A stretch of DNA of 41,835 bases, from positions 121,546 through 163,380 of IMG/VR virus record IMGVR_UViG_3300008108_000057, one strand, 5' to 3'. A program made the position numbers and the translations under genes. Of the stretch, positions 3,679 to 33,819 are shown one piece after another (the first letter of the stretch is position 1; every line of letters begins with the position of its first letter). The DNA is from a virus. The notes under the pieces were generated by a model. The model was not told the DNA's origin and did no database searches. It worked only from the letters and a program-made list of their open reading frames with translations.

Positions 3679-4356
3679 ATGTCCTCATGGGGTAATAACG
3701 ACAACTCAGCAAATGCACCTTACTGGGCAGTAAACTCAGCAATTGCACCTGCTAATCCAAATAGAGCAGCACCTACAGCGGCTAACGTAGCATTGCTATA
3801 TGCAAACACTACAGCAAACGTGTATACTGCTGCCGAAACAATTGGTCTATTCGGACTAGATTCTCAAGAAATTGATGTTCTAGGAGATACAGGAGCACAC
3901 ACTGGTTGGGTACTAAAAACCGAAGGATCTGGTGGTAGAGCAAATCGTGTACAATACGAAACTCTTGTAGCACTAAGTAGCATGATTAGAGATGGGGATG
4001 CACAATTGTTCCCGAACGTAGCGATTTCTTTAGCAGTAACTTCAGCCGCTTCTGTTGTTGCTAACACACTATACGCTAATTCAGCAACATTTGTTGTAAC
4101 ACCAACGCTGACTGGAAACACCGCTGCCGCTCTAACATATCAGTGGCAAGTCAACAATGCAGCTGGTTCGCTAGGATGGACGAACGTTGTAAATGGAACA
4201 CCAGCGAATACAAACTACACTGGTGGAACCTCAGCAACACTACTTGTCAAGCCAGCAGATACAACAGTAAACACCCACAGATTCCGTGTTACTGTTACAG
4301 CAGCAGATCAAGGAGTATCTGCAACATCTTCAAACGGCGTAATTACTGTAACTTAA
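3679..4356 (+). CDS. Virion decoration-type protein with C-terminal Ig-like domain
   Basis: 225 residues behind a strong AAGGAG. The N-terminus (SSWGNNDNSANAPYWAVNSA) matches the WGNND-type N-terminal segment of virion proteins I recall in T4-like cyanophages. Residues about 120-225 form an Ig/BIg-like beta domain (FVVTPTLTGNTAAALTYQWQ, later HRFRVTVTAADQGVSATSSN). The composition is Ala/Thr/Asn-rich with few charges, unlike the lysine-rich neighbours, and suits an exposed capsid or neck decoration. A hairpin terminator follows directly, so it probably ends a highly expressed transcript. Exact position on the virion is not shown by the sequence. Confidence 0.7.
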   Translation: MSSWGNNDNSANAPYWAVNSAIAPANPNRAAPTAANVALLYANTTANVYTAAETIGLFGLDSQEIDVLGDTGAHTGWVLKTEGSGGRANRVQYETLVALSSMIRDGDAQLFPNVAISLAVTSAASVVANTLYANSATFVVTPTLTGNTAAALTYQWQVNNAAGSLGWTNVVNGTPANTNYTGGTSATLLVKPADTTVNTHRFRVTVTAADQGVSATSSNGVITVT

Positions 4357-30569: not shown

Positions 30570-30598
30570 TTGACAATTGGTAGTGGATCCATTATACT
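30570..30598 (+). promoter_or_regulatory. Sigma70 early-type promoter
   Basis: TTGACA (30570-30575), a 17-base spacer and TATACT (30593-30598), followed by GTATCCATAC as at other copies. Confidence 0.9.
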
Positions 30599-31115: not shown

Positions 31116-31122
31116 TATAGAG

Positions 31123-31153
31123 TCCTCTAGTGTAAAAACTAGAGGATTTTTTT
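31123..31153 (+). terminator. Strong rho-independent terminator
   Basis: TCCTCTAGT (31123-31131), a six-base loop and ACTAGAGGA (31138-31146), then seven T. Nine perfect pairs. It closes the unit begun at the promoters at 29773-30598. Confidence 0.9.
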
Positions 31154-31163
31154 GGTATAGTCC

Positions 31164-31192
31164 TTGACAATTCAGCCAGTAACCTGTATTAT
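31164..31192 (+). promoter_or_regulatory. Sigma70 promoter for an untranslated region
   Basis: TTGACA (31164-31169), a 17-base spacer and TATTAT (31187-31192). No convincing gene follows for 400 bases, so its product may be a non-coding RNA or a long leader. Confidence 0.8.
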
Positions 31193-31988: not shown

Positions 31989-32017
31989 TTGACAATTGGC
32001 ATGGATACCTCTATACT
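31989..32017 (+). promoter_or_regulatory. Sigma70 early-type promoter for the GP88 gene
   Basis: TTGACA (31989-31994), a 17-base spacer and TATACT (32012-32017); leader TTGATTGATTGA then GAGAGGAAA. Confidence 0.9.
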
Positions 32018-32047: not shown

Positions 32048-32797
32048 ATGAAATTGCTATCCACAGGTAATCCTAAGATTCTCAAAGGTACTAAGCAAGG
32101 CTATAACACCTATATCCTGCACCTCGCACCATACAACCTGAGCGGCTATCAGACCTGCCCTAAAGCAACCGCAGGGTGTGCGGAAGCCTGCCTCAATACC
32201 GCTGGTCGTGGTGGTATGTTCAAAAAAGGCGAGACCACCAATGTTATCCAACAAGCAAGAATCCGTAAGACCCAATTTTTCTTTGAGGAACGAAACGGCT
32301 TCATGGAGTGGCTTGTATCTGATATCGAAAAAGCAATTAAACAATCAGCAAGATTGAACCTGATTCCTGTTTTCCGCTTGAATGGTACCTCGGACTTGTC
32401 CTTTGAAAAATACTCTGTTATCCGTAACGGTGTACAATATGACAATATTTTCTTTGCATTCCCTGAGGTACAATTCTATGATTACACCAAGATTCTAGGC
32501 CGTAAAATCAAGAATATTCCTAACTACCACTTGACATTCTCAGCCGCTGATGGTAACGATTCCGACGTGGCCAAAGCCATTGAGCAAGGTTACAATGTAG
32601 CAACGGTCTTTGGTATCAAGAAAACCGAACCGATGCCTGAATTCTACAATGGCCTGCCGGTATTCAATGGCGACGATTCCGACCTACGATTCCTTGATCC
32701 TAAAGGTGTTATCGTTGGCCTGTATGCAAAAGGTAAAGCCAAAAAAGACACCAGCGGCTTTGTCAAGTATCCTACCATCATGATGATGGCTGCCTAA
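32048..32797 (+). CDS. GP88-family phage protein
   Basis: 249 residues from ATG 32048, behind AGAGGA. KLLSTGNPKILKGTKQGYNT, the cysteine cluster CPKATAGCAEAC (Cys37, 44, 48) and VFRLNGTSDLSFEKY match the phage gene-product-88 family (mycobacteriophage gp88, from memory). The CX6CX3C cluster and TIM-barrel-like pattern hint at an iron-sulphur or zinc site; the function of the family is unknown. Codons use much third-position C, as do neighbours. Confidence 0.8.
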   Translation: MKLLSTGNPKILKGTKQGYNTYILHLAPYNLSGYQTCPKATAGCAEACLNTAGRGGMFKKGETTNVIQQARIRKTQFFFEERNGFMEWLVSDIEKAIKQSARLNLIPVFRLNGTSDLSFEKYSVIRNGVQYDNIFFAFPEVQFYDYTKILGRKIKNIPNYHLTFSAADGNDSDVAKAIEQGYNVATVFGIKKTEPMPEFYNGLPVFNGDDSDLRFLDPKGVIVGLYAKGKAKKDTSGFVKYPTIMMMAA

Positions 32798-32838: not shown

Positions 32839-33045
32839 ATGTTTAACCGTGAAAAAGCCATTGAAACCCTTGTTTCCGATGATGTCCAAACGATAACCTT
32901 TATGGTTAAAACTTTCCAAACAAGTGATTATCTAAATGCTATCTTGCGGGAAGGGACAAAAGGTTACGTGGATTACACCGATGAGGAATTGATATCAGAA
33001 TTGCAAGACCGTGATATCTCATACCTGTTTGGCGAGACCGAATAA
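32839..33045 (+). CDS. Small acidic hypothetical protein
   Basis: 68 residues behind AAGGAG with the recurring GTTATCAAATG start context. NREKAIETLVSDDVQTITFM, then YTDEELISELQDRDISYLFG. I recall similar small phage proteins with a C-terminal TDEELI-L helix. Followed at once by a promoter remnant. Confidence 0.6.
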   Translation: MFNREKAIETLVSDDVQTITFMVKTFQTSDYLNAILREGTKGYVDYTDEELISELQDRDISYLFGETE

Positions 33046-33048
33046 CCC

Positions 33049-33070
33049 TTGACAATTCGCACCACTAACC
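33049..33070 (+). repeat. Promoter remnant (left copy of 22-base direct repeat)
   Basis: TTGACAATTCGCACCACT then AACC; identical at 21 of 22 bases to 33523-33544. No -10 hexamer exists at 17 bases: the position reads AAGTGA. It looks like a promoter cut by the HNH gene that follows. Confidence 0.75.
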
Positions 33071-33085
33071 AAAGTGAGGATTACC

Positions 33086-33526
33086 ATGAAATCTAAGTTG
33101 GTACTAGGTCGGCGTCCTAAATGCATTAATGATGGATGCAATAACCGTGGTCAATTTATGGGAACCTACCGAAAAGACGGTTCTCCTGCCTTTCGGAATT
33201 ATTGTTCATCCTGTCACCATAAGCGGTCCGCAAATAAAAAAGGAATGACCGTATCCGAATGGACCCATCAATCCCATCCTTACTTGAAATACCGTAAGAC
33301 CTATTGTGAAAATGCAAAAGGCGATAAGGCTGGCTGGCTCGGTTACAAGTGTACCACGACCATTGTCCACACTTTGCAATTGGACGTGGATCACCTTGAC
33401 GGCAACCCAACCAATAATGATCCCGATAACCTAATAACATTATGCAAATGTTGTCATTCTATTAAAACCAATATGTTTGCTGATTATGCAACAAAAGGCC
33501 GAAAAAGATTAGGGCTGGCCTATTGA
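33086..33526 (+). CDS. Freestanding HNH endonuclease
   Basis: 146 residues from ATG 33086, behind GAGGA. Zinc-binding cysteines (Cys13, 18, 40, 43) precede the HNH core LDVDHLDGNPTNNDPDNLIT with LCKCCHSIKT (His103, an Asn in NPTNN, His124; Cys120/123). Typical of phage homing-type nucleases. It sits between two copies of one promoter sequence and its stop codon lies in the second -35, consistent with mobile insertion into a promoter. Confidence 0.88.
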   Translation: MKSKLVLGRRPKCINDGCNNRGQFMGTYRKDGSPAFRNYCSSCHHKRSANKKGMTVSEWTHQSHPYLKYRKTYCENAKGDKAGWLGYKCTTTIVHTLQLDVDHLDGNPTNNDPDNLITLCKCCHSIKTNMFADYATKGRKRLGLAY

Positions 33527-33551
33527 CAATTCGCACCACTTACCCTATACT
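33523..33551 (+). promoter_or_regulatory. Sigma70 early-type promoter (right copy of direct repeat)
   Basis: TTGACA (33523-33528), a 17-base spacer and TATACT (33546-33551). The HNH stop TGA (33524-33526) is inside the -35. Intact partner of the remnant at 33049. Confidence 0.9.
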
Positions 33552-33582: not shown

Positions 33583-33819
33583 ATGAATATCATATCATTA
33601 GTGCAAGATGAAATTTCCGCAGGCGAATTGACCTGGGCACAAATTGCCGAAAAGTTTAATATGTCCGTTTGGGACGTAGAATTGATTTTCGAGGAAATGA
33701 TGGATCAAATGGCGGAAGCCTATAATGAATCCATGGATGGTGATTTTGATTCCGCCATGGCCTCAGCTGGCTACGGCACCGATGAGGATTATGGATATTA
33801 TGGCAATGAGGAGTTTTAA
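33583..33819 (+). CDS. Acidic protein with helix-turn-helix-like segment
   Basis: 78 residues behind AAAGGAG. LTWAQIAEKFNMSVWDVELI has helix-turn-helix spacing; the rest is acidic (EEMMDQMAEAYNESMDGDFD, GTDEDYGYYGNEEF). DNA binding is possible but the acidity argues for caution. Immediately behind a strong promoter. Confidence 0.6.
   Translation: MNIISLVQDEISAGELTWAQIAEKFNMSVWDVELIFEEMMDQMAEAYNESMDGDFDSAMASAGYGTDEDYGYYGNEEF

Follow-up and report, generated by a model that had tools for sequence, protein, structure and literature searches.

A promoter-less HNH homing-type gene probably inserted by short-homology recombination into an early promoter of a T4-type phage

The HNH locus and its surroundings

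The window analysed here, a stretch of 41,835 nucleotides, forms the end of the 163,380-base virus record IMGVR_UViG_3300008108_000057. The capsid protein (Gp23, E = 2.7e-145) marks the phage as T4-like, and the record encodes a RecA/UvsX-family recombinase (E = 1.3e-13); RecT and ERF annealing proteins have been looked for and none was found. A megablast search of the 30–36 kb region against cultured phages gave no match at the DNA level. Promoters of the perfect TTGACA-17-TATACT type are found 13 times in the window, against 0.17 expected, and TTGACAATT, the core common to all these promoters, is present at 18 sites. Beyond the -10 box, many of them share GTATCCAT, conserved around the start of transcription, as at window positions 30570, 33523, 34345, 35398 and 37390 and in the related loci L013 and L014. 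A strong terminator-like hairpin with a T-run is located at 31120–31192, directly before the promoter at 31164, and is the only clear stem-loop/promoter pair of the promoter-early stem-loop (PeSL) type among the promoters examined.

The HNH endonuclease gene lies in a variable slot between a GP88-family gene and P0002, both of which serve as anchors in the comparisons below (Table 1). P0002 encodes a small uncharacterized protein, whose relatives in environmental virus contigs number in the hundreds (378 confirmed).

Table 1. Features at and around the HNH gene (window positions).
Feature	Position	Strand	Remarks
GP88 gene promoter	31989..32017	+	TTGACA-17-TATACT; nearest upstream promoter able to transcribe HNH by read-through
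GP88-family gene, left-hand slot anchor	32048..32797	+	Pfam PF17338, E = 6e-38; in all syntenic relatives
P0003, small ORF to the left of the insert	32839..33045	+	Homologues 46–48% identical in L013, L014, L015 and L016
Promoter-derived part of left copy	33040..33066	+	27 bases identical to the single promoter of L175 and its upstream edge; longest exact match
Left promoter-like copy, no -10	33049..33070	+	Repeat comparison
Inferred left join, CCACT	33062–33066	+	Overlap of the promoter-derived and leader-derived parts
Leader-derived part of left copy, CCACTAACCAAAG	33062..33074	+	Exact match to the post-GP88 leader of L175 (10761)
HNH endonuclease gene, 146 aa	33086..33526	+	Pfam HNH_3 and PHROG HNH families; motif DHLDGNPTNNDPDNLITLCKCCH intact
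Right intact promoter, TTGACA-17-TATACT	33523..33551	+	Holds the HNH stop codon (33524–33526)
Inferred right join in TTGACAATT	33523–33531	+	Promoter core
P0002, right-hand slot anchor and gene of the right promoter	33583..33819	+	92% identical homologue in L013

The HNH gene is intact from its ATG to its TGA, with a GAGG ribosome-binding site just upstream of the ATG. The protein belongs to the HNH superfamily by its match to PF13392 (25.5 bits, with a cut-off of 24.8) and to the PHROG HNH families, and Asp102, His103, Asn115, Cys120, Cys123 and His124 are invariant in 23 HNH homologues. An AlphaFold model has a pLDDT of 86.5. The fold matches of this model in the PDB are weak, the best being the GVE2 HNH protein (E = 0.11), and a sequence search against solved structures gave nothing significant. 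A second copy of the gene was not found in the 163-kb record. Some T4 endonuclease genes have a leader hairpin that hides the ribosome-binding site; a hairpin of this kind before the HNH gene of the window is unsupported (z = 0.51).

The two promoter copies

The observation of an earlier note on this DNA, that the HNH gene is flanked by two nearly identical 22-base promoter copies, is borne out. The left copy, TTGACAATTCGCACCACTAACC, and the right copy, TTGACAATTCGCACCACTTACC (33523–33544), differ at one base and are the most similar of the 153 pairs that the 18 TTGACAATT sites of the window can form, with 21/22 matches against a mean of 13.4. No further site within three mismatches of the 22-base copy exists in the window, and none appeared in 100 shuffles. 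The right copy is part of a full promoter with the textbook sigma-70 pattern and, as the note had stated, is intact and holds the stop codon of the HNH gene, the TGA of which lies within its TTGACA.

The left copy has no -10 box at a spacing of 16–18 nt and continues into AAAGTGAGG-ATTACC-ATG, so the description of a copy that lacks its -10 and reads into the ribosome-binding site stands; the view that the -10 was lost does not. The left edge instead consists of two exact matches to the nearest relative of the phage, one to a promoter with its upstream edge and one to the translation leader that follows GP88, which overlap by the 5 bp CCACT and together leave no base of the edge unexplained. 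The 13-mer of the leader-derived part was present in 0 of 2000 Markov-resampled sequences. Judged from these two genomes, the left copy is a promoter/translation-leader chimera and not a decayed promoter, which explains the single mismatch and the missing -10 without decay. With no -10 in the left remnant, transcription of the HNH gene presumably reads through from the GP88/P0003 unit.

The empty site in related phages

The nearest relative, IMGVR_UViG_3300042542_003555 (loci L013 and L175), is about 87–92% identical around the site. The earlier note had proposed looking for a relative in which a single promoter takes the place of the HNH gene, and this relative is such a case: one intact promoter joins the homologues of P0003 and P0002, with the P0002 homologue directly behind it. 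The empty site reads GAATAACCCTTGACAATTCGCACCACTTACCCTATACTGTATCCATAACGTGAACAAAGGAGATATCAAATG and has no HNH gene. An HNH gene at this position is likewise absent from all other syntenic relatives. HNH-free relatives with both promoter copies, which the note had named as evidence against an insertion, were not encountered. In L014–L016, the interval from P0003 to P0002 does contain two promoters, but the left one differs in its spacer and the DNA separating the pair is unrelated.

The distance between GP88 and P0002 is 4 bp in at least nine distinct contigs, 301 bp in L013, 788 bp in the window and 1069–1110 bp in L014–L016. As the closest relative has one promoter and no HNH gene, and no syntenic relative carries the gene, the direction of change was most likely a gain of HNH. 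An insertion into the promoter, as the earlier note had it, is well supported by this comparison of sequences. Two findings count against this interpretation. The left flank has no clean match to L013, in which P0003 is only 47% identical, and the 3' end of P0003 is closer to L016; the region is therefore one of mixed history. Also, no donor DNA with an HNH gene more than 67% identical has been found, since searches of all viral_contigs with the 22-bp repeat and with the HNH 3' end plus the -35 core returned known relatives only.

A possible trace of the gene has been identified at a different promoter of the same relative. In L013, GCTGGCCTA stands before the GP88 promoter (3886). It equals the nine bases found ahead of TTGACA at the 3' end of the HNH gene in the window, and gives the possible footprint GCTGGCCTATTGACAATT. 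Apart from the window, this 18-base combination of the HNH 3' tail and TTGACAATT occurs only in the contig of the relative among 2.9 million viral_contigs, and the next best of 288 TTGACAATT sites (redundant loci included) matches the HNH 3' end at 6/9 bases. This match, a single case, suggests that an HNH gene was once located at the GP88 promoter in the L013 lineage.

Related HNH genes in other phages

For comparison, 80 loci that carry a related HNH gene have been fetched, and promoter contacts were scored within these loci. The stop codon of the HNH gene lies inside a -35 box in 6/19 relatives that are at least 45% identical, against 10/495 control ORFs (p = 7e-6), and in 9/63 overall against the same 10/495 other ORFs of these loci (p = 6e-5); both tests are based on simple ORF calls without correction for relatedness, and are indicative only. 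Several unrelated phages show the stop codon within the -35 box of the next gene (L095, L099, L116, L123, L141, L167 and L169). In L258 and its kin, the HNH gene is located between 68-bp repeats of promoter, leader and ATG that are 98.5% identical (4240–4305 and 4789–4854 in L258), and the promoters flanking the HNH genes of L155 and L114 are also alike. The similarity among the other copies of this promoter in L258 is much lower. L262 was considered as the empty site of the L258-type gene and rejected, as it has the same promoter before a different gene.

In another phage group, the HNH gene of L033 (5406–5850) adjoins a P0002 homologue, at the ribosome-binding site and leader of the next gene, and the relatives L030, L031 and L036 are without it. 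The cultured HNH relatives are mostly found beside capsid or other genes, which counts against the interpretation favoured here, and more distant members of the family occupy other kinds of site.

A leader of the form TCAA[C/T]AACAGAAATGAAA, with a GTTGA- or ATTGA-type arm, is found just before the HNH genes of L096, L113, L114, L123 and L147, and a small hairpin is possible in these loci. As this conserved leader precedes HNH genes with differing promoters, it may travel with the gene. A broader reading, which we regard as speculative and rather unlikely, is that a clade of phage HNH nucleases prefers to dock at resident early promoters and has repeatedly fused its stop codon with the -35 box, by which the gene downstream would retain a promoter; removal of the HNH gene that spares this promoter would then be constrained.

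Proposed mechanism of insertion

In the interpretation that we favour with reasonable confidence, a promoter-less free-standing HNH gene of the homing type was inserted by short-homology recombination and the recipient promoter was regenerated at its stop codon. A T4-type phage would have gained the gene inside the early promoter of P0002. In the donor piece, a translation leader with CCACTAACCAAAG would have preceded the HNH gene and a promoter core would have followed it. Very short homologies would have linked this piece to the recipient promoter at either end, with CCACT at the left join and TTGACAATT at the right one. Because these joins overlap on the recipient promoter, 18 bp would then be present on both sides. 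The right copy would remain the complete promoter of P0002, with its -35 box supplying the stop codon of the HNH gene, and this layout is predicted to keep the recipient promoter functional.

The short-homology recombination proposed in the earlier note fits both joins and, together with the chimeric edge, is the most likely mechanism. The recombinase may have been the UvsX-like protein of the phage itself, and a cut by the HNH protein itself may have started the event, making it a case of putative homing, which is plausible. The further proposal of the note, that the repeated promoters offer the nuclease many landing sites, holds as a possibility only, with a single HNH copy in the 163-kb record and one likely footprint in the relative.

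Alternative explanations

The repeated early promoters could also act as general recombination points at which cassettes are shuffled without the help of a nuclease, the HNH gene being a mere passenger. This has an appreciable chance of being correct, although we do not favour it. The GP88–P0002 slot of L014–L016 holds other small genes interleaved with promoters of the same TTGACAATT type, some non-HNH genes are also flanked by promoter repeats (L163 and L139), and promoter-linked PeSL exchange in T4-like phages is cited in PMC4503421. However, the overlap of the -35 box with the stop codon and the flanking promoter repeats are more common in HNH genes than in other genes, and HNH genes of such a type are typical mobile genes.

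The HNH gene could instead be ancestral and have been lost from L013-like relatives by a deletion between the 22-bp repeats, which would leave one intact promoter as seen in L013 and would agree with the HNH-like 3' footprint elsewhere in that relative. We consider this improbable, since no other syntenic relative, even the distant ones with directly adjacent genes, has the HNH gene or the left remnant, and the chimeric left join is derived and not ancestral. It is still less probable that the nuclease recognizes the promoter itself (-35 box and spacer), with promoters as homing targets. In its favour, a -35 box repeatedly marks the end of family members in unrelated phages, whose promoters differ, but the spacers differ wholly between cases, many family members are found elsewhere, and the phage of the window keeps at least 13 such promoters as well as the intact right copy, all of which would be cut. 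Finally, two unrelated promoters that are alike by chance or consensus can hardly be the explanation despite the 18 TTGACAATT sites, as the two copies are far above the mean similarity of the other pairs and one promoter of the relative, at the empty site, matches both sides.

Comparison with known systems

The insertion favoured here would be a well-documented case of a selfish nuclease gene settling in a phage, with an unusually readable scar. With the filled and the empty allele and joins at base level, one can see directly how a free-standing nuclease gene enters a promoter without silencing the gene behind it. The recurrent layout of a stop codon in a -35 box suggests a general solution to promoter displacement, a problem raised for T4, and the roles of promoters as recombination points and as nuclease targets can now be told apart by direct tests.

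The PeSL cassettes cited in PMC4503421 are similar in that gene exchange takes place at points marked by repeated early promoters. Unlike in these cassettes, no terminator-like stem-loop is found beside either promoter copy, the folds being weak at both 33049 (-6.4/-6.4 kcal/mol) and 33523 (-10.9/-2.5 kcal/mol). T4 UvsX joins broken DNA at homologies of 3–4 nt (PMC8262927). The joins proposed here also involve few bases, and the record encodes a protein of the same RecA/UvsX family, but the T4 events are deletions after Cas cleavage whereas here a gene would have been gained.

The closest parallel is the mob/seg genes of T4 (segG, mobB, mobC), free-standing HNH or GIY-YIG endonuclease genes that are intergenic and often promoter-less cassettes, with displaced promoters of the downstream genes inside them, an arrangement thought to favour gene retention (PMC2988022). 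Both features can be read from the DNA of the window, in which the left copy has no -10 and the right -35 box lies over the stop codon. The presence/absence polymorphism of free-standing homing endonucleases is also seen, the HNH gene being present in the window only and the site empty in L013 and the other relatives. The insertion differs from the mob/seg genes in the exact overlap between the stop codon and the downstream -35 box and in the short direct repeat, one edge of which is chimeric; homing is only putative here. The HNH insertion is thus of a kind already known from the T4 mob/seg genes, and its detail is a variant.
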